From Myxococcota bacterium (GTDB lineage: Bacteria; Myxococcota_A; UBA9160; SMWR01), in contig JBCCEW010000002.1 of NCBI GenBank assembly GCA_039030075.1, positions 248,001 to 312,000 of the forward strand: 64,000 bases of DNA, read 5' to 3'. Made by a program: the position numbers and the translations under genes. The notes under the pieces were generated by a model that was not told the DNA's origin, did no database searches, and was given only the letters and a program-made list of their open reading frames with translations. This document shows positions 14,730-41,536 of this stretch, piece by piece (the stretch's first letter is position 1; every line of letters starts with the position of its first letter).

Positions 14730-16160
14730 CTATCTCCCGGCCGAGCGAAGGATTCGCTCGGATCCCAGACGGGCGGAGGAGGGCTTGCCCTCGATTCCGA
14801 ATTCCTTGAGACGTCTCCAAAGCGTCGTCGTGGAGATCTGCAAGAGCTGGGCGGCGCGCTTGCGGTTCCACCCGACCCGCTCCAGGGTCTCGATGATGTG
14901 CCGGCGCTCGAGTACGGGGAGGCTCTCGACGACGCCGTCGGGCGCACGCTCGGTCGGTGTCCGATGGAAGCGGGGCAGGACGTCGATGCCGACGACTTCG
15001 CCGCGCGAGAGGGCGACGGCGCGTTCCATCACGTTCTGGAGCTCCCGCACGTTCCCCGGCCACTGGTAGGCCACCAGGGTGTCGAGGGCGTCGGGCGAGA
15101 GCTGGAGTCGGTCGCGGTTCGTGCGTCCCGCGAGGTCGCGCAGGAAGTGCTCGGCGAGCAGCGGGACGTCGGCGAGTCGCTCCCGGAGCGGGGGCACGTG
15201 GAGCGGGATCACCGCGAGGCGGTAGTAGAGGTCCTCGCGGAAGTTCCCCTTCTCGACCTCTTGGACGAGATCCTTGTTGGTCGCGGCCACGAGCCGGACG
15301 TCGACGTAACGCGTGCTGTCGCCACCGATCGGTCGGATTTCGCCGGTCTGAAGGAACCGGAGCAGCTTCGCCTGCATCGAGAGCGGCATCTCCGCCACCT
15401 CGTCGAGGAAGACCGTGCCGGTGTTCGCCTGCTCGAACAGCCCCTTCTTGTTGTTGGTCGCTCCCGTGAAGGAGCCGCGCATGTGTCCGAAGAGCTCGCT
15501 CTCCAGCAGGGTCTCGGGGAAGGCAGCCGAGTTGACGGCCGAGAAGGCTCGGTCGCGGCGGTCGCTCGCCTCATGAATCGCGCGGCCGATCAGCTCCTTG
15601 CCCGAACCGGTCTCGCCGGTCACGAGCACCGTGCTGTCGGTGGGGCCGACCCGCCGGACGAGTTCGAGGAGGTCGACGATCGCCTTCGACTCCCCGACGA
15701 TGCCCGCGAAGCGCTGGGGCGTCTTGCGCGGGCGCGGAGTCGCGGCGCGCGCCGGTTCACGCCGGCCGGCGGCTGCCAGCGCGGCTTCGAAGCTCGTGCT
15801 GTCCCAACCCGTGGGCAGCAGGTAGCAGACGGCCGCGTTGTTGATCGCAGCGCGAATCCGATCGGGCTCCTCGAGCCCCGAGATCAGGATGCGCGGGACA
15901 TGGGGCCAGTGGTCTCGGGTGGTGGTGAGCAGGTCCAGGCCCGAATCCGACGGCAGTGCATCGTCTGCGATCAGCAGATCGACGTCTTCGGTCGTGAGCA
16001 GGCGCAAGGCCTCGGCGGAGGAGAACGCCTCCACGCACCGCATGCCCCGACTCTCGAGGTCGCGCGTGGCGGCCGTGCGAACCTGCGGGTTCGAGGCCAC
16101 GAGAAGCACGTTCTCGGGAGCGCGCTCCGCTTCTTTGTGCGCCGCTGCAGACGAATGCAT
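14730..16160 (-). CDS. NtrC-family sigma-54 activator, probable flagellar master activator (FlrC/FleR-like)
   Basis: A 476-residue three-domain regulator. The receiver (~15-130) keeps an Asp (LLIADDALPSDSG) but lacks the acidic pair at its start (VASNP) and the Lys (CYLLPTGWD). The AAA+ domain is intact: Walker A GETGSGKE (~187), Walker B GTVFLDEVAEM (~250). The sigma-54 contact loop reads GSFTGA (~228) instead of GAFTGA. A Fis-type helix-turn-helix ends the protein (NRKRAAQLLQISTTTLWRR). Encoded between motB and fliL, it is the only NtrC-type protein in the window able to open sigma-54 promoters and the likely binder of the palindromes seen upstream of flagellar operons. Confidence 0.88.
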   Translation of the reverse strand: MHSSAAAHKEAERAPENVLLVASNPQVRTAATRDLESRGMRCVEAFSSAEALRLLTTEDVDLLIADDALPSDSGLDLLTTTRDHWPHVPRILISGLEEPDRIRAAINNAAVCYLLPTGWDSTSFEAALAAAGRREPARAATPRPRKTPQRFAGIVGESKAIVDLLELVRRVGPTDSTVLVTGETGSGKELIGRAIHEASDRRDRAFSAVNSAAFPETLLESELFGHMRGSFTGATNNKKGLFEQANTGTVFLDEVAEMPLSMQAKLLRFLQTGEIRPIGGDSTRYVDVRLVAATNKDLVQEVEKGNFREDLYYRLAVIPLHVPPLRERLADVPLLAEHFLRDLAGRTNRDRLQLSPDALDTLVAYQWPGNVRELQNVMERAVALSRGEVVGIDVLPRFHRTPTERAPDGVVESLPVLERRHIIETLERVGWNRKRAAQLLQISTTTLWRRLKEFGIEGKPSSARLGSERILRSAGR

Positions 16161-29088: not shown

Positions 29089-29134
29089 GCTTCCCTCCGT
29101 TCTCGCGAGTGCGAGGCGTTCGGGGGAAGAAACT

Positions 29135-29150
29135 GCAATGGGCGTGCCAG
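29135..29150 (-). promoter_or_regulatory. Sigma-54 promoter of the flgB operon
   Basis: TGGCACGCCCATTGCA matches the -24/-12 consensus TGGCACGNNNNTTGCW at every specified position. Predicted start near 29124, giving a leader of about 36 bases before flgB. Confidence 0.85.
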
Positions 29151-29267: not shown

Positions 29268-30494
29268 TCAGTCGAGCGCGTAGCGTCGAATCTTGTTGCG
29301 CAGCGTGCGCGGGCTGATGCCCAACGCGCGTGCGGCCATGGCCCGGTTGCCTTCGGCCACCTCGAGAGCGCGAGCGATCACCGTGCATTCGATCTCGCGG
29401 AGATCGAATCCCTCGACGTCGATGCGATGCGCGGTCGTCGCGGTGGCGGCAGGCTCCGGTCCGGCGGCGGGCATGTCGAGCGCGGTGCGCCGCATCCAGT
29501 TCTCGAGTTCGTGGAGGTTCCCCGGGAAGGCGTGCTGCGCGAGCTCGCGCTGGAGGTCGCTCGGGAGCGGGGCCTGGGGAAGGGTTGCGGAGGGCGCGAA
29601 GCTGGCCAGGAAGCGGCGCGCCAGCGGTAGGAGATCTTCGCGCCGCTCGCGGAGGGGCGGGATGAGGAGGTCGATGACGCGGAGCCGCTCGCGGAGATCG
29701 CGGGAGAAGCGGCCCTCGGCGACCGCCCGATCGAGATCGCAGCGGCTGGTCGCCACCACCCGAACATCCACCGCGGGGTGCGTGTGGAGCACGGAGCGGT
29801 GCTGCAGCAGCCGCAGCACGGCCTCCTGGCCGTGGGGAGAGAGTCGTTCGATGCCCTCGAGCACCAGCGTCCCGCCATCGGCGAGCTCGAGGGGGGCCGC
29901 CTGCTGCCCCGCCGCCGCGGTCACGAAGTCGCCTTCTCCGCGGAGGTCGCCCGCGTCGAGTTCCACGCACGGGTTGCCCGCGCGCGGGCTGCGCTCATGG
30001 AGCCAGCGGGCGAGATGGCTCTTCCCGGTGCCAGTCTCTCCGGTCAGGAGCACGGTGGCGTCGCTGCGCGCCGCCCGCTCGAGGTGTGCCAGCAGCGGTC
30101 GCATCGCGGGCGACTCGGCGACGAGGCCCGCGTCCGTGCGGCGCCTGCGCGCGCGGGAAGCGACGCTCTCCAGCGCCCGTTCGAGAGATTCGACGTCGAA
30201 GGGCCGCCGCAGGAAACCGTGCGCGCCTTCTCGCAGGGCGCGGATCACGGAACCCCGCTCGCGGGCGGGCCCGATCGCCAGGAGTCGCAAGCGCGGAACC
30301 TGGCTGCGCAGGGTTCGCAGCATCTGCCAGCCCGTCGCATCGGAGAGGTCGACGACGGCGACGTCGAAATGGGCATCGCGATCCCGCGGCAGTGCGTCGG
30401 CATCGGCCTCCCACGCACCGTGTCCCGCGCGGCGCGTCGCAAGGGCGACGTCCCGCTGCAAATGAGGATCGGCGACCCGGACCCAGACGTTCAC
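29268..30494 (-). CDS. Degenerate NtrC-family regulator (FlbD/FlrC-like) without GAFTGA
   Basis: A 408-residue protein starting with GTG overlapping the upstream gene's stop. The receiver keeps an Asp (AVVDLSDATG) but has Arg for Lys (FLRRPFD). The AAA+ domain keeps Walker A (GETGTGKSHLA, ~155), but Walker B reads GGTLVLEGIERL instead of GGTLFLDEI, and the whole GAFTGA loop is missing: sequence runs from VELDAGDLRGEGDF to QQAAPLELADGG. The Fis-type helix-turn-helix GNRAMAARALGISPRTLRNK is excellent and FlbD-like. It can probably bind DNA but not activate sigma-54 in the usual way. It is encoded just upstream of the flgB promoter region. Confidence 0.82.
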   Translation of the reverse strand: MNVWVRVADPHLQRDVALATRRAGHGAWEADADALPRDRDAHFDVAVVDLSDATGWQMLRTLRSQVPRLRLLAIGPARERGSVIRALREGAHGFLRRPFDVESLERALESVASRARRRRTDAGLVAESPAMRPLLAHLERAARSDATVLLTGETGTGKSHLARWLHERSPRAGNPCVELDAGDLRGEGDFVTAAAGQQAAPLELADGGTLVLEGIERLSPHGQEAVLRLLQHRSVLHTHPAVDVRVVATSRCDLDRAVAEGRFSRDLRERLRVIDLLIPPLRERREDLLPLARRFLASFAPSATLPQAPLPSDLQRELAQHAFPGNLHELENWMRRTALDMPAAGPEPAATATTAHRIDVEGFDLREIECTVIARALEVAEGNRAMAARALGISPRTLRNKIRRYALD

Positions 30495-31090
30495 CTCGCG
30501 GTTCCCTCGCAGAACCAGAGCGTGGCTTCGAGCAGCGGGGCGTTCGCCTCCCACGTCAGGCGACTGCCCGACGTCCGCGCGAAGCGCTCACTCTCCTCGA
30601 AGGGCCGTTCGGGCGTGTTCCGGGGGGTGGCCCCGGCATGGGCGCGCAACGACAGGCCTTGGTGCTCGGGGGATCGCGCCGCCGCCAGCTGCAGTCGCCC
30701 CTCCGGACCCGTCCAGTTCGCGGCCTCGCGCAGCAAGTGCATGCACGAGCGACGCGCCAGGCGCGCGTCCACCGGCCAGACCGCCGAGGTCGCTTCGAAG
30801 GGATCGAGTCGGACGCCGCGCGCCGCCAGCACCGGCCGCAGCTGACCCAGGAGACTCTGCAGCGCTCCGGCCGCATCCCCTTCCGGCACTTCGGCGGACG
30901 GCGCGAGCCGAGCGAGCGCCTCTTGAATGCGCGCATCGAGGTCGGCGAGCGCATCGCGGATCGTCGTCGCGAAACCTTCCGGCGCAGGGTAGGGCGCACG
31001 TAGCCACTGACTCGCGGCGAGCTCGATGCGCGCCATCGGGTCGCGCATCTCTCGCAGATGGGTCTCGAGATCGAGGTCGCTCGAACTCAG
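30491..31090 (-). CDS. Degenerate histidine-kinase-like protein (FlrB/FleS position)
   Basis: About 199 residues, assuming a CTG start at 31090 that overlaps the preceding stop and follows a strong GAGGGAGA site; the first ATG is at 31048. The N-terminal helix has ETHLREMRDPMARIELAA, aligning with a kinase H-box (HExRNP), but the His position is Arg; another His lies two residues earlier. The C-terminal part resembles a shrunken HATPase fold (HLLREAANWTGPEGRLQLAA in place of the N-box), without recognisable G-boxes. It precedes the degenerate NtrC-type regulator with a 4-bp overlap, as kinase and regulator do in FlrB/FlrC pairs. Assignment rests on layout and weak similarity. Confidence 0.6.
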   Translation of the reverse strand: MSSSDLDLETHLREMRDPMARIELAASQWLRAPYPAPEGFATTIRDALADLDARIQEALARLAPSAEVPEGDAAGALQSLLGQLRPVLAARGVRLDPFEATSAVWPVDARLARRSCMHLLREAANWTGPEGRLQLAAARSPEHQGLSLRAHAGATPRNTPERPFEESERFARTSGSRLTWEANAPLLEATLWFCEGTAR

Positions 31091-33015
31091 GGGCGTTCTC
31101 CCTCGAACGCCGCTCGCAGGTCGTCGACACGGTCTTGCGCTCGGCTCAAGCGGTTCCACATCGAGGGGTCGACATCGTTGGTGGCCCGCGCAGGGGGCGT
31201 CAACTCGGCGCGGAAGCGCGCCCGCGCCTGGCGCGGCCCCTCGGGCAGCAGCTCGCTGGCACGCAGGAAGGCGGACCTTGCGGCTACGGGTCGGCCGCGT
31301 TCTCCCAGCAGATCGCTCGCCCACAGCCACGCCTGGCCCCGGTCCTCTCGATGAACGGCTGCCACGGGGACGTTGAGCGATCGCAGCAACGCCACGGAGA
31401 TCGCGTCGGTGTCGACCTCGTCGCCTCGGGCCCGCGATCGCAACACCACGAAGCCCAGCTCCGTTTCTGCGTCGACGCGCATGGCTTCGGGGAGCGTCTC
31501 CTCATCGAGCAGCCGCAGCAGACTCGCGAGGGCCTCGGCGTCGCGCTCCTCCAGGATCGCCAGTCGCGTTTCGAGCCAGCGCCACTCGAGGCTCGCGCGC
31601 TGCGCCTGGGCCGTGGGCCGCGTGTCGTTGCGCTGCGCGCGCAGCGAAGCGCGGAGGGCGGCAACGCGATCGAGGGCCATCGAGGCCTTGGCGATTCGCA
31701 GCCCGAGCTCGCCGGTTTCGATGCCGAAGCGGCGCGCGAGCCCCCGGTAGACATCGAGGCCCGCCGGTGCCAGGCCGAGCTCGACGAAGCAGTCGCCCAA
31801 CACCAGCATCGGCCCCGGGTCCGAAGCGCGCCGCAGGAACGCGTCGCGTTCGTTGCCGAGTCGCTTGATGACGAGTGGGCACGGCGCCTCGGGGGCGCCC
31901 GCCGCAATCATCGCCCGGTCGAGGTTGTCCGCGAAACGGGGCTTCGCGGTCTCTGGGCTGCTGTCCCGCGAAAGCCGCCCGACTTCGATCAGTGCCTCGT
32001 CGAGGCGATCCGCTTCCAGCAACAGCTCCAGCCGGGCGTCGCGGGCCTGGCTGCGCACCGCGGGGTGCGCGGTCTTGGTAAGGGGCTCGAGCCGCTCGAT
32101 GCGTGCCTCGAGGCTTTCCCCGAGCAAGCCGTGATCGGCGAGGCGAACGCGGGCCAGGGCGCGGGCGGCCTCCGAACTCCCGCTCTGCGAGACCCGCCGC
32201 AGCGCACGACGCGCGTCTTCTCGCCGTTCGAGGGCGATCAGGACGTCAGCCTTGCGCACCGTCGCCACGCCGCTGCCGTCCTCCACACGTTCGGCGTCGG
32301 CCAACCAGCGGTGCGCAGAGCGGAGCTGCCCGGCGTCGATGGCGAACTCGGCGGCGCGGGGTCCCCAGGTGGAGAGGTCGAGACCGCGGTCGCGGGCTTC
32401 TTCGAGATCGGCTTCGAACGCTTTCTGGATCTCGCGCGTGACGTCGGCAAGGGGCCATCCTTGCTCGAGGTCGGTCCGCCGCAAGCGGGCCGCGAGCGCG
32501 AGGGTCTTTCGTTCCGAGCCCTCGAGCGCTCGGTAGGTCGCTGCGGCGACACTCTCGCGTCGGCCTTCGAGCACGGCTGCCTCCGCCCGATAGTAGGTGG
32601 CCACCTCTTTCCAGAGTCGACCGGCGGGTAGCAGGGCTTCGGCCCGCCGGACCTCGGCGCGGGCTTCGGGTGCGAGCCCAGCCCGGAGGAACGCGCGCGC
32701 CAACTCGAGATGCTGGCAGGCGCGATCCGCCTTCCCCGACGGTCCCCACTCGCGCTCCGCGGCATCGAGGGAACGCTGGGACGCTGTCGGATTCGTGCCG
32801 CTGCGTACTTCTTCGAGTACCGCACGGATTTCGGGGTGCAGCGCGTCGCTGGCGCGGCAGTTTCCGGCCCCGTCGATGAAACCCGCGTTCAATGCGCGTG
32901 GCGCCAGGAGAGCGAAGGCACTCGGTCCGGGAACCTCGGGCGCTGCCCCGGCGAACGAGGCACACACGAGCGCGACGGCCAGGCTCGCGCCGAGACTTCC
33001 GCGACGGGTCTTCAC
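31087..33015 (-). CDS. Secreted helical-repeat (TPR-like) protein
   Basis: A 642-residue protein starting with GTG at 33015, overlapping the PilZ gene stop. A signal peptide (residues ~1-24, LGASLAVALVCASFAGA) predicts periplasmic location. The remainder is Ala/Arg/Glu-rich helix pairs resembling tetratricopeptide repeats (for example HLELARAFLRAGLAPEARAE and LVLGDCFVELGLAPAGLDVY). No enzymatic motif is seen. Its place between PilZ and kinase-like genes suggests it supplies a periplasmic input or scaffold for that regulatory operon; this is inferred. Confidence 0.7.
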   Translation of the reverse strand: MKTRRGSLGASLAVALVCASFAGAAPEVPGPSAFALLAPRALNAGFIDGAGNCRASDALHPEIRAVLEEVRSGTNPTASQRSLDAAEREWGPSGKADRACQHLELARAFLRAGLAPEARAEVRRAEALLPAGRLWKEVATYYRAEAAVLEGRRESVAAATYRALEGSERKTLALAARLRRTDLEQGWPLADVTREIQKAFEADLEEARDRGLDLSTWGPRAAEFAIDAGQLRSAHRWLADAERVEDGSGVATVRKADVLIALERREDARRALRRVSQSGSSEAARALARVRLADHGLLGESLEARIERLEPLTKTAHPAVRSQARDARLELLLEADRLDEALIEVGRLSRDSSPETAKPRFADNLDRAMIAAGAPEAPCPLVIKRLGNERDAFLRRASDPGPMLVLGDCFVELGLAPAGLDVYRGLARRFGIETGELGLRIAKASMALDRVAALRASLRAQRNDTRPTAQAQRASLEWRWLETRLAILEERDAEALASLLRLLDEETLPEAMRVDAETELGFVVLRSRARGDEVDTDAISVALLRSLNVPVAAVHREDRGQAWLWASDLLGERGRPVAARSAFLRASELLPEGPRQARARFRAELTPPARATNDVDPSMWNRLSRAQDRVDDLRAAFEGERP

Positions 33016-33548
33016 GCGTCGTCCCGAGCCGTCGATCGTGAACGCAGCGCGAAGCGCTCGACATCGAGACAGTGGCGGATGATGGATTCGCGATCCTCCT
33101 CGCGGATCGCGGAGAACCCGCAGGCGACCTCGCTTCCATCGTCGCGCGGGATCGTCCGGACCACCACGCCCAGGCAACGAACGCGCTGGGCCGGCGGGCC
33201 GGGCAGCTCGAACTCGAGCAGGAGCGTCGCATCGTGCGCGACCGGGTCCTGGGTGACCCAACTGATCCCGCTGCCCGAGATCACGACATCGTGGACCTCG
33301 CTGGGCCGCAGCTCTTGCCGGTCTTCTCCGAGGATCTCGAGTATCCGGTCGAGCTTGACCTCGAGACGGTCCATCCACGCGGCGAGCTGGGGGTCGACGT
33401 CGCCCAGGTCGCCCGTCTCGCCCGCGTAGATCTCTCGCTCCAAGCGACTTCGCTCGCCAGCCGAGATGACCTGCGCCCGGAGTGGCAACTGGGTTTGGAC
33501 GCGAAAGTAGTCGCGTTTCTCGAGACCCTGCGCTTCGATTGCCGCCAT
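33012..33548 (-). CDS. PilZ domain protein, first gene of the regulatory operon
   Basis: A 178-residue protein with an N-terminal EKRDYFRVQTQLPLRAQV region (the Arg of KRDYFRV being the PilZ Arg motif), a helical insert, and a second half with VVISGSGISWV and VRCLGVVVRTI, matching PilZ strands. I chose ATG 33548, behind GGGAGGTCGGC: the predicted sigma-54 start lies near 33569, so the longer candidate at 33584 would not be in the transcript and the one at 33566 would have almost no leader. It probably binds cyclic di-GMP. Confidence 0.8.
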   Translation of the reverse strand: MAAIEAQGLEKRDYFRVQTQLPLRAQVISAGERSRLEREIYAGETGDLGDVDPQLAAWMDRLEVKLDRILEILGEDRQELRPSEVHDVVISGSGISWVTQDPVAHDATLLLEFELPGPPAQRVRCLGVVVRTIPRDDGSEVACGFSAIREEDRESIIRHCLDVERFALRSRSTARDDA

Positions 33549-33579
33549 GCCGACCTCCCGATTCATCGAGAGGTAGGAA

Positions 33580-33595
33580 GGCAAGTTGCGTGCCA
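33580..33595 (-). promoter_or_regulatory. Sigma-54 promoter of the PilZ regulatory operon
   Basis: TGGCACGCAACTTGCC fits the -24/-12 consensus except for the last base. Predicted start near 33569, 21 bases ahead of the chosen PilZ ATG. Confidence 0.82.
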
Positions 33596-38497: not shown

Positions 38498-39322
38498 CTA
38501 CTGCAGCAGCGAGAGCGCGTTCTGCGTAGACACGTTGGCCTGGGCGAGCACCGAGATGCCCGCCTGCTGGAGCACCTGGAACCGCGTCAGGGTTGCGGTC
38601 TCCGAGGCCACGTCGACGTCGCGGATGCGCGACTCGGCAGCGGCCGTGTTCTCGACGCTGACCGCGATCGATCGAATCGTGGATTCGAGCCGGTTCTGCG
38701 CCGTACCGAAGTCGGCGCGGAGACCGGCGACCGAGTCGATCGCCGTGTCGAGGGTGGCCAGGGCGTTCTGCGCGTCGGTGGACGTCGTGATCGCCAGGGC
38801 ATTCACGCCGAGACCCGTCGCGGTGGCGTCCACACCGGCGACCGAGATGCGGTCGTTGGCGGTGTTGTCCGCGCCCACCTGGAACGAGACCGAGGTCGTC
38901 GTGCCGTCGAGGAGCGCGGTGCCGTTGAACTCGGTAACGGCCGCGACGCGGTCGATCTCGTCGATCAGGGCCGAGAACTCCTGATTCAGCGTCGTCCGCT
39001 CACCTGCGCCCAGCGTGCCGTTGGCGGCCTGAATCGCGAGCTCACGCATCCGAATCAGGTTGCCGCTGGTCTCGTTCAGCGCGCCTTCACCGACCTGCAG
39101 GAGCGAAATGCCGTCGAGGGCGTTTCGCTGAGCCTGCTGGAGACTGCGCACGTCCGCGCGCAGTCGCTCGGAGATGGCGAGGCCCGCAGCGTCGTCCGAG
39201 GCCCGCGTGATGCGGAGACCCGAGGAGAGACGCTCGAGCGATCGCTGGAGCATGTTCGTACTGTTCGAAAGGTTCCGCTGAGCGTTCAGCGAAGCCGGGT
39301 TCGTATTGATCCGAAGACCCAT
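38498..39322 (-). CDS. fliC: Flagellin
   Basis: A short 274-residue flagellin with only the conserved D0/D1 helices and a small middle. The N-terminus MGLRINTNPASLNAQRNLSN and SSGLRITRASDDAAGLAISE are diagnostic, as is the C-terminal RFQVLQQAGISVLAQANVST. Start at ATG 39322, behind CGGAGGA. It is the only flagellin gene in the window, has its own sigma-54 promoter and terminator, and its leader carries GGA motifs that could bind CsrA. Confidence 0.96.
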   Translation of the reverse strand: MGLRINTNPASLNAQRNLSNSTNMLQRSLERLSSGLRITRASDDAAGLAISERLRADVRSLQQAQRNALDGISLLQVGEGALNETSGNLIRMRELAIQAANGTLGAGERTTLNQEFSALIDEIDRVAAVTEFNGTALLDGTTTSVSFQVGADNTANDRISVAGVDATATGLGVNALAITTSTDAQNALATLDTAIDSVAGLRADFGTAQNRLESTIRSIAVSVENTAAAESRIRDVDVASETATLTRFQVLQQAGISVLAQANVSTQNALSLLQ

Positions 39323-39334
39323 GGTGGTTCGATT

Positions 39335-39364
39335 CCTCCGTGACAGTGATGCCTGCCGATCCTT
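39335..39364 (-). promoter_or_regulatory. Possible CsrA sites in the flagellin leader
   Basis: Two ANGGA motifs lie in the flagellin leader: ACGGAGG at 39335-39341, overlapping the ribosome site, and AAGGA at 39360-39364. Paired sites with one over the ribosome site are the arrangement by which CsrA represses flagellin translation in Bacillus, with FliW as antagonist. Both csrA and fliW are encoded 1.5-2 kb away. Confidence 0.45.
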
Positions 39365-39504
39365 TGGCAGCCATTCGCTTCGCGCACACGCCTCGCGACT
39401 TGCGAAGGTGCGTGCGTTCCGCGCGGGGGGAGCCACCGCGCCTCAGGCACACGGTCAGCTCGACTCCGGATTCCCCGTGTTCCTCCGGAGCCGCCGTCGA
39501 AGAG

Positions 39505-39520
39505 AGCAAGGCGCGTGCCA
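39505..39520 (-). promoter_or_regulatory. Sigma-54 promoter of flagellin
   Basis: TGGCACGCGCCTTGCT is a perfect -24/-12 match. Predicted start near 39495, giving a leader of about 173 bases. Confidence 0.87.
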
Positions 39521-39620
39521 GGGATCGGCGGGGCGGGATCGCCCCGAATGGGAACGCTCCCTTCGGCGCCGACTTGCGCGAGCGCGATCGAAAGCTGCGA
39601 GTTGCAGACCGGTTGCGAAC

Positions 39621-39635
39621 GTTTCGCGCTGAAAC
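39621..39635. promoter_or_regulatory. Activator palindrome shared by flagellin and the GNAT gene
   Basis: GTTTCGCGCTGAAAC matches the best palindrome at 12 of 15 positions. Its centre is about 133 bp upstream of the flagellin start point and about 73 bp upstream of the predicted rightward GNAT start point. It is the only copy seen in this divergent region. Confidence 0.65.
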
Positions 39636-39674
39636 GCGACTGCCGCCCTGCGGCACTCGGAGGGCGTTCTGGCG

Positions 39675-39690
39675 TGGCATCGATCTTGCT
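39675..39690 (+). promoter_or_regulatory. Sigma-54 promoter of the GNAT gene
   Basis: TGGCATCGATCTTGCT has the GG-N10-GC spacing and matches the consensus except at two positions between the conserved blocks. Predicted start near 39701, two bases ahead of the ATG, implying an almost leaderless message. Confidence 0.6.
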
Positions 39691-39702
39691 CAGTCGCTTC
39701 TC

Positions 39703-40833
39703 ATGGAACCGCTCTTCGCTCGTCCGCAGTCGCTCTCGCTTCAAGTTCCCCGTCCTCGCGCCCCGCGCACCGACGCGGAGCACGCCGCGTTGGAACACTG
39801 GTTGGACGACGGGCTTCGCCGCGGCGAACACGGTCGCCTGGCCTCCGAGTACCCGCTGTCGATGGGGGCGAGCGGCACGCGGCGCCACCACGTGATCTAT
39901 CAGCAGGGACGCCCTGCGGCTCACGCGATGCTGCATCCCGTCGAGATCCAGACCCAGGGGCGTCGTTTGCGGGTCGGCCTGGTGGGAAACGTGTACACCG
40001 ACCCCGCGTACCGGGGACGGCACTTCGCGAGCGCGTGCGTGGACGCCTGTGTCGCCGACGCGCGACGGCTGCGCCTGCCGCTCGTGCTGCTGTGGAGCGA
40101 TGCCTGGGACTTCTATGCCCGGCTGGGTTTCCACCCGGTGTCGCGCGAACGATTCCTCGCGCTCGAGGCAGAACGCATCGTCGCGGCGGAGCCGCCGCGC
40201 ATCTCGCCGATCGAGGTGGGGGCCCCGGTGGAACGCGACTGGCTGGCCCTCGAGTCGCTCTACGCGGCGAAGCCCCAGCGGGTCCTGCGTAAGGCCGGCG
40301 CGCTGCGCCAGCTGGCCGCGGCTCCGGATTGTGTGCTGCGCGTCGCGCGCGTCGCCGGGAGCCCGGCGGGCTACGCGGCGGTGGGGCGGGGCGACGACTT
40401 CCCCGGCGTGATTCACGAGTGGGCGGGCGGACCGGGAGCCGTCCTCGCCTGTCTGGCGGATCTCGTCCGCGGCAGCGGTGCCCACACCTTGCTGTGCGGA
40501 CCGAGCGACGAGCCTGCGGTCGAGCGACTGATCCAGGCCGGCGCGAAGCCGCGCGACGGAGCCTTCGCCCTGGCACGCGTGCTCGACGCGCCGGCGATCT
40601 GGCGCACCTGGGTTCCGAACGGCTCCGGCGTGCAGCTGATCCACGAGAAGCAGCACTGGCGCCTGCAGAGCCTGGGGCAGAGCGTCGTGCTCGATGCGCC
40701 CGAGACGCTGGACCTCCTGTTCGGCGCAGGGGTTCGCGGTCGCGTGCGCGCGAAGCTGCCGCGCCTGCTGCGGCGTCGGCTGGATCCCCTGCTGCCCTGG
40801 CCCCTCTACCTCTGGGGTTTCGACTCGATCTGA
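39703..40833 (+). CDS. GNAT-family acyltransferase divergent from flagellin
   Basis: A 376-residue protein. The GNAT core is in the first half: VGNVYTDPAYRGRHFASACV (acetyl-CoA loop R-G-R-H) and LVLLWSDAWDFYARLGFHPV. The rest may be a second, degenerate GNAT-like fold, as in Eis-type enzymes. Substrate unknown. It interrupts the leftward flagellar genes between fliW and flagellin, has no ribosome site before its ATG, and appears to share an enhancer with flagellin. Acylation of flagellin, its glycan or a regulator is a reasonable inference but is untested. Confidence 0.8.
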   Translation: MEPLFARPQSLSLQVPRPRAPRTDAEHAALEHWLDDGLRRGEHGRLASEYPLSMGASGTRRHHVIYQQGRPAAHAMLHPVEIQTQGRRLRVGLVGNVYTDPAYRGRHFASACVDACVADARRLRLPLVLLWSDAWDFYARLGFHPVSRERFLALEAERIVAAEPPRISPIEVGAPVERDWLALESLYAAKPQRVLRKAGALRQLAAAPDCVLRVARVAGSPAGYAAVGRGDDFPGVIHEWAGGPGAVLACLADLVRGSGAHTLLCGPSDEPAVERLIQAGAKPRDGAFALARVLDAPAIWRTWVPNGSGVQLIHEKQHWRLQSLGQSVVLDAPETLDLLFGAGVRGRVRAKLPRLLRRRLDPLLPWPLYLWGFDSI

Positions 40834-41336
40834 GCGGCGTCGCCCGGCGACGGCGCGCCGTCGGGCACCGGAGCCGCGACCGGGAGTTCCTCTTCGAGGA
40901 TCGCCTGGACGCCCCGTCGGGTTCCCGCGTGTACGAGGAGCGGCGCCGAGAGATTCACCACGGCGGGCTGGTGGCGCAGATTGGCGATCGCCAGGACGAC
41001 CACCTCTTCGGCGTCGCCGGCTCCGACGGCGTCGAGCACGCTGCGCGACAGCTTCGGCGCATAACCGGAGAAGAGCGCGCGCGCATCGACGACGGGCAGC
41101 GCGAGGTTCGGATCGTCGAGGCTGACCAGCCACGAGAAGACGGACGGGACGTCGTGGGCGACGAGGGCCCAGCGGCGTGCCTCGGGGAAGCCGGGGATCC
41201 CGTCGAAGCACAGGACATCGCGCTTCGCGACGCGCAGGTCTCCGGCGCGGCGGTGCGCGATCGAGATGCACTCCGCGGGTTCGGCGCTTTCCGACCCTTC
41301 GAGATGGGCGGGCGCGCTCGGGGTGGTCTCGCTCAT
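40806..41336 (-). CDS. fliW: FliW, CsrA antagonist and flagellar assembly factor
   Basis: A 176-residue protein. The FliW core includes VLCFDGIPGFPEARRWALVA and the C-terminal VVNLSAPLLVHAGTRRGVQA. FliW binds either flagellin or CsrA, releasing CsrA when flagellin accumulates. It overlaps csrA by 4 bp and ends the flgF unit; its 3' end overlaps the convergent GNAT gene by 28 bp. Confidence 0.93.
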   Translation of the reverse strand: MSETTPSAPAHLEGSESAEPAECISIAHRRAGDLRVAKRDVLCFDGIPGFPEARRWALVAHDVPSVFSWLVSLDDPNLALPVVDARALFSGYAPKLSRSVLDAVGAGDAEEVVVLAIANLRHQPAVVNLSAPLLVHAGTRRGVQAILEEELPVAAPVPDGAPSPGDAAQIESKPQR

Positions 41337-41536
41337 CCGGCATCGCTCGGGTCGGCCAGAGCGGCGTCCCGGTTGGCGGCCGCGGCGCGGTCATAGAGCT
41401 CCTCGCGCACGATCAGCACGTCGGCCGGCGCCTCGATGCCGAGTCGTACCTGGCGGCCCGAGATCTGGAGGATGCGGATCCGGACATCGGGTCCGATCCG
41501 AACGGATTCGTCGTCACGTCGGGTCAGGACCAACAT
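41333..41536 (-). CDS. csrA: CsrA, RNA-binding translational regulator
   Basis: A 67-residue protein starting MLVLTRRDDESVRIG with the conserved GRQVRLGIEAP and the RNA-contact Arg in LIVREELY. CsrA binds GGA motifs in leaders, often blocking translation of flagellin mRNA. It overlaps the flgL stop by one base and fliW by four. Confidence 0.95.
   Translation of the reverse strand: MLVLTRRDDESVRIGPDVRIRILQISGRQVRLGIEAPADVLIVREELYDRAAAANRDAALADPSDAG

Follow-up and report, generated by a model that had tools for sequence, protein, structure and literature searches.

The GNAT-family acyltransferase gene that diverges from flagellin in the window (the whole 64 000-nt stretch of Myxococcota DNA that was analysed) is best explained as a late flagellar gene coding for an Eis-type amine acyltransferase, switched together with flagellin and directed at a filament-related target; we give this reading as a whole a probability of roughly 0.6. 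Locked to flagellin both by the arrangement of the genes and by the kind of promoter, this conserved enzyme of an uncultured lineage is a candidate for a new step of flagellin maturation or assembly control. The matching promoters, as read from the DNA, point to an undescribed enzymatic step in the making of the flagellum; we found no flagellin-paired GNAT of such a kind in the open-licence PMC literature.

Conservation of the flagellin–GNAT pair

Flagellin and the GNAT gene diverge from the two ends of a 380-bp intergenic region (Table 1). On the flagellin side the neighbours are fliD and fliS; beyond the GNAT gene lie fliW, csrA, flgL and flgK. All of these genes run leftward, and the GNAT gene is indeed the sole rightward gene of the late flagellar block, as the preliminary description had it.

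Table 1. Coordinates (window numbering) of genes and regulatory elements at the flagellin–GNAT locus and of candidate activators
Feature	Position	Strand	Description and basis
Flagellin	38498..39322	-	274 aa, N-terminus MGLRINTN, 0 lysine; Pfam Flagellin_N + Flagellin_C, composition
GNAT gene	39703..40833	+	376 aa, Eis-fold tandem GNAT, C-terminus WGFDSI; Acetyltransf_9, AF2 model, Eis2 match
Flagellin sigma-54 promoter	39505..39520	-	exact consensus; predicted +1 at 39494
GNAT sigma-54 promoter	39675..39690	+	one mismatch; predicted +1 at 39701, ATG at 39703
Palindrome CGTTTC-N5-GAAACG	39620..39636	.	probable activator (enhancer) site; kept in relatives
CsrA-type hairpin with AAAGGATC loop, flagellin leader	39353..39370	-	such a hairpin in 22 of 23 leaders
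Flagellin Shine-Dalgarno GGAGG	39335..39339	-	sequence
fliW	40806..41336	-	Pfam FliW, E 4.4e-25; tail to tail with GNAT gene, ends overlap
csrA (start not fixed)	41333..41533	-	Pfam CsrA, E 5.9e-20
Sigma-54 activator, HTH_8 + poor receiver domain	29268..30554	-	Sigma54_activat 7e-29, HTH_8 4.5e-14; candidate activator for flagellin and GNAT
Second sigma-54 activator, receiver + AAA+ + HTH_8	14730..16160	-	Sigma54_activat 9.2e-69; alternative candidate activator

The conservation of the pair, which had been named as a check, was followed through related genomes. Strong matches to the GNAT protein were present in 14 of 60 relatives, and a profile built from 15 members detected it at E<1e-40 in 21 of the 79 genomes of the order; outside the class, no GNAT was found at E<=1e-25 among 377 genomes of the phylum. 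A divergent flagellin adjoins the gene in 18 of 19 order members, counting the GNAT genomes with a contig that covers the 5′ side of the gene (in G018 and G043 it ends at a contig edge); in the sole exception, G073, the cluster is decayed. In the sister family f12 a shorter GNAT relative occurs in 5 of 11 genomes, all five times beside a divergent flagellin.

Flagellin itself (E<1e-40) was found in 19 of the 21 GNAT genomes and in 3 of the 58 that lack the gene (Fisher p 3e-13, relatedness ignored). Thus, the GNAT is restricted almost wholly to flagellin-bearing genomes. Flagellin without this GNAT was seen in G045, where fliW is followed by other genes, and in G052 and G075.

One could suppose that the protein is a general Eis-like acetyltransferase of small amines, parked behind a flagellar promoter and with no filament-specific role. 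Its nearest solved structures are Eis and Eis2, and relatives exist outside a flagellar setting; however, the adjacency to flagellin is kept across six families, the gene is nearly absent from flagellin-lacking genomes and the promoters of both partners appear to have changed sigma factor in coordination (see below), and we regard this explanation as improbable. Two distant Eis-like relatives, L119 and L120, share the C-terminal sequence LPLFLWGFDSI and lie away from flagellar genes, thus this type of enzyme is not flagellar by nature; the neighbours of the distant relatives included nothing flagellar that could serve as a functional hint.

Paired promoters and a probable shared activator site

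Both promoters of the preliminary description were recovered. The perfect sigma-54 site said to face flagellin reads TGGCACGCGCCTTGCT, with no mismatch to TGGCAYGNNNNTTGCW; the good one facing the GNAT gene, TGGCATCGATCTTGCT, has one mismatch. Set against 300 single-base shuffles of the region between the genes, the top sigma-54 score per strand had P ~0.007 on the flagellin side and ~0.010 on the GNAT side. Genome-wide, TGGCAYSNNNNTTGCW occurs in 11 copies (2 of them the flagellin and GNAT sites), compared with 4 copies of the reversed pattern. At <=2 mismatches there was no window-wide enrichment of the sigma-54 pattern (12 matches, 8.6 expected); with a count so near chance, position and conservation weigh more than number.

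The flagellin-facing site scores 22–23 of 23 in 17 of the 18 intergenic regions from the order, and a chance match on this side was rejected. The GNAT-facing site is less perfect. Could it be a chance match, with the gene expressed independently of flagellin? The near-chance count in the window would fit, as would the individual weakness of the site in 10 of the 18 members (the best score reaches P<=0.05 against single-base shuffles in just 8 of 18); however, in most members of the order a GGYAYCGWWCTTGCW-like sequence recurs where the GNAT gene starts, usually 155–225 bp from the flagellin site and in agreement with the order-wide leaderless spacing described below, which makes a chance promoter very improbable. 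In G027 the best-scoring GNAT-facing site is not the one adjoining the ATG.

The sigma-54 class of promoter is common to GNAT and flagellin in the order with the exception of G021, where the pair is present and no sigma-54 site was found on either side; a GCCGATTG box, read by eye, stands there ahead of a GTG. In f12, sigma-28-like sites (TAAAG-N-GCCGAA) in both directions replace the sigma-54 sites. The numbers of 200 single-base shuffles that matched the score of the right and left site were 0 and 1 in G084, 0 and 4 in G085, and 7 and 7 in G080; in two other f12 members, G087 and G079, the sigma-28-like sites were no better than shuffles. The pairing of flagellin and GNAT thus appears to outlive a change of sigma factor, with both partners switching together, and this apparent joint change is the best argument for selected co-expression.

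The proposed co-activation with flagellin gains strong support from the conserved divergent arrangement, the paired sigma-54 sites and the sigma-28-like pairs of f12, while the proposed modification of a target is a matter of inference. On this evidence it is very probable that the GNAT is a late flagellar enzyme and shares its regulation with flagellin, its gene being a dedicated member of the late flagellar set.

A palindrome does lie between the two promoters; it is not single, as had been claimed, since other inverted repeats exist in the region (e.g. CGGGGC...GCCCCG at 39529–39546). It is, though, the conserved one among them: its best matches summed over 17 relatives gave 157, compared with 137.1 +/- 2.9 for dinucleotide shuffles, none of 300 of which reached this value. 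In most of the clear cases among relatives it is situated 40–56 bp upstream of the GNAT -24 element. Binding of a sigma-54 activator to the palindrome would turn on flagellin and GNAT jointly. Two sigma-54 activators of the window, both with a Fis-type HTH, could act in this role: the one with the poor receiver domain is the candidate and the second activator of Table 1 the alternative.

Another exact sigma-54 site of the window, at 29134–29149, precedes a gene with a good Shine-Dalgarno sequence, an ATG at +35 and a rod-protein-like N-terminus.

A predicted leaderless GNAT transcript opposite a leadered flagellin

In the standard sigma-54 geometry the transcription start is placed 12 nt after the C of the -12 element. 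The GNAT ATG of the window falls 2 nt past the start so predicted, and the first in-frame start codon falls 2–6 nt past it in 8 of 18 order members (the window, G001, G044, G053, G027 with its second-ranked site, G061, G022 with a GTG, and G057). G065 also fits leaderless spacing, by a weaker site read by eye; in the remaining members the start codon follows the predicted +1 by 15–41 nt, or none is near. The next start in G061 is at +136, and its use would delete the larger part of the N-terminal helix, which is conserved. In three of the five f12 members (G084, G085 and G080) the ATG stands 1–3 nt after the predicted sigma-28 start. We thus predict a leaderless GNAT mRNA; in the window a TTG downstream is a possible alternative start.

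A leaderless start as a trait of the GNAT alone was rejected, given the sites of relatives, an unrelated 120-aa gene and an order-wide pattern. The pattern TGGCAYN5TTGCWN{9,16}ATG had 177 matches in the 79 order genomes, compared with 11 for the reversed control; among the 150 matches listed, 80 have a gap of 12–13 nt between site and ATG (chi-square p 3e-13, with related genomes not independent). Matches to a comparison pattern, in which the start codon is 25–32 nt away, are also common, and many of these sites show a visible Shine-Dalgarno sequence. The order therefore shows a class of predicted leaderless sigma-54 genes alongside leadered ones.

The 120-aa gene (L134:1531-1890; site region C28:53859-53891), the second clear case in the present genome, has the same 16-base sigma-54 site with an ATG at +4, and is likewise predicted to be leaderless; its upstream neighbour is a frame that we take to be uvrC-like. 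The protein had no Pfam match. Its relatives occur in 55 of the 79 order genomes, with similar sites before them even in flagellin-lacking genomes. Within the window, a sigma-54 site with one mismatch at 33580–33595 has its predicted +1 at 33569, and the ATG of a PilZ-domain gene (33012–33584) follows 3 nt on; this gene has a second ATG at +21.

Leaderless mRNAs of Actinobacteria, Deinococcus and Leptospira (the last in PMC5243855) have the start codon at the transcription start, as is predicted here. The bacterial leaderless signal described in one account is a sigma-70 -10 box ~12 bp upstream (PMC3160421); the genes considered here have instead a -24/-12 sigma-54 or a sigma-28-like promoter. 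We found no report of leaderless sigma-54 genes in the open-licence PMC literature. Such an architecture, if true, ties activator-gated transcription to leaderless translation.

The flagellin transcript has a predicted leader of ~172 nt. A hairpin with a GGA loop precedes the Shine-Dalgarno sequence in 22 of 23 leaders of paired flagellins, and in 5–27% of shuffled leaders; this CsrA-type hairpin is kept under both promoter types. With the GGA hairpin, the Shine-Dalgarno sequence, and csrA and fliW all present, the window has the elements of a CsrA-repressed leader, the same set as in the hag system of Bacillus, where CsrA is described as binding two sites of the hag leader and FliW as its antagonist (PMC7652899). 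As in Bacillus, FliW-CsrA probably acts as a gate on flagellin translation. A GNAT mRNA starting at its own AUG would escape this gate. With a leadered flagellin and a predicted leaderless GNAT, the two genes appear to be linked at the level of transcription and separate at that of translation; herein the locus differs from Bacillus hag, as the divergent partner is predicted to be leaderless and outside FliW-CsrA control.

The position of the GNAT gene between flagellin and fliW-csrA, as well as the conserved CsrA-type hairpin, might also suggest that the enzyme acts on FliW, CsrA, FliS, FliD or the export gate and thereby tunes the supply of flagellin; FliW has three lysines and FliS none. 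In f12, however, the gene that has stayed next to the GNAT is flagellin, with fliD-fliS after it, and no fliW was seen in the f12 stretches retrieved. We consider such a target unlikely.

The enzyme and its likely target

Residues 59–145 of the GNAT match Pfam Acetyltransf_9 (E 9.8e-12). The AF2 model (pLDDT 90.4, pTM 0.88), compared with Eis2, shows two GNAT folds and a C-terminal domain across the whole chain: model residues 16–376 match Eis2 with Z 25.5 (349 aligned residues, rmsd 3.8), and Eis (3r1k) matches with Z 22.9. N-myristoyltransferases come next at Z ~17, also mostly paired to the C-terminal residue. Identity to Eis and Eis2 is 12–16%.

The residues described as catalytic in Eis are Tyr126 and Phe402, the latter by its C-terminal carboxylate (PMC8556138). 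Residue 376 of the model pairs with the last residues of the Eis and Eis2 chains, and nearly all complete members end in WG[FL][DE]S[IV] (G080 and the truncated G072, G079 and L122 are left out of this tally). Tyr138 is present in 24 of 24 aligned GNAT sequences; from motif and fold we infer that it is the counterpart of the catalytic Tyr126. The likeness to Eis and Eis2 (tandem-GNAT, ‘type V’ GNAT) thus extends over the whole-length fold, the Acetyltransf_9 domain, a catalytic-type Tyr and a C-terminus in register with Phe402; the differences are the low identity, the location beside flagellin and the flagellar promoters. The protein is a new, lineage-restricted branch of the Eis fold tied to flagellin.

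As an Eis-type acyl-CoA:amine N-acyltransferase, the enzyme would activate the amine by its C-terminal carboxylate, and the departing CoA would take up a proton from Tyr138. We lean towards such a mechanism on the strength of fold and conservation, with one reservation about activity of the window enzyme: it has His107 in the CoA-binding loop where 23 of 24 aligned sequences carry Gly.

The preliminary description had named three possible targets of modification by the GNAT: flagellin, the glycan on it, and an assembly factor. Two of the routes this would allow were closed for the present genome, acetylation of flagellin lysine and dependence on a Maf glycan, leaving the flagellin N-terminus, other glycans and assembly factors as candidate targets. 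The window flagellin has no lysine among its 274 residues, so lysine acetylation is impossible in this species. It is unlikely in general, with 0–3 lysines in each of the 23 paired flagellins and no lysine position common to all; nine of the 23 are lysine-free, one of the nine being a 107-residue fragment. Enzymes of the FliB type, which methylate flagellin lysines, are similar in that a dedicated enzyme gene lies near flagellin; the scarcity of lysines in the flagellins considered here sets the GNAT apart from them.

GNATs of flagellin glycosylation do exist: PseH is a small single-domain GNAT acting in sugar-nucleotide synthesis. By analogy with its role in pseudaminic acid synthesis, the enzyme could acylate an amino sugar, either in a filament glycan or in a precursor of such a glycan, and MptE-like/Maf domains (PF01973) are encoded in 15 of the 21 GNAT genomes. 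Yet PF01973 was absent from the other six (G000, which is the present genome, G001, G028, G044, G065 and G073), and Maf-glycan dependence was rejected as a general requirement. Moreover, the GNAT gene is paired with flagellin itself rather than with a sugar operon, the window proteins scanned (part of the window's genes) included none of glycosylation, and the fold is that of Eis. What is shared with PseH (PMC4363471) is a GNAT tied to flagella; a glycan substrate is, in our estimate, rather doubtful.

The enzyme probably acts on a component of the filament or on a factor that assembles it. Because the window flagellin is without lysine, the amine of its N-terminal Gly2 is favoured, and acylation of this alpha-amine is our leading single guess, a tentative one; an assembly factor, a non-Maf glycan and a bystander enzyme come after it, in this order. 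Gly2 is present in 23 of 23 paired flagellins and also in 8 of 10 unpaired ones; thus it is a candidate target and not a signature of pairing. One could speculate further that the Eis-fold enzyme, made from a leaderless sigma-54 mRNA outside FliW-CsrA control and one case of a lineage-wide leaderless sigma-54 class, caps the last amine of a near-lysine-free flagellin and so yields an amine-free filament, an undescribed maturation step; in this full form the idea is a long shot.

Between 36521 and 43938, flagellin, FlgL and FliS are lysine-free, and FliD and FlgK have one lysine each. Lysine makes up 2 of 1557 residues of the late exported proteins of the window, compared with 27 of 1917. A depletion of lysine in all late exported proteins was weakened as a candidate by the FliD of relatives, with 1.9% lysine; the depletion in flagellin does hold in relatives.
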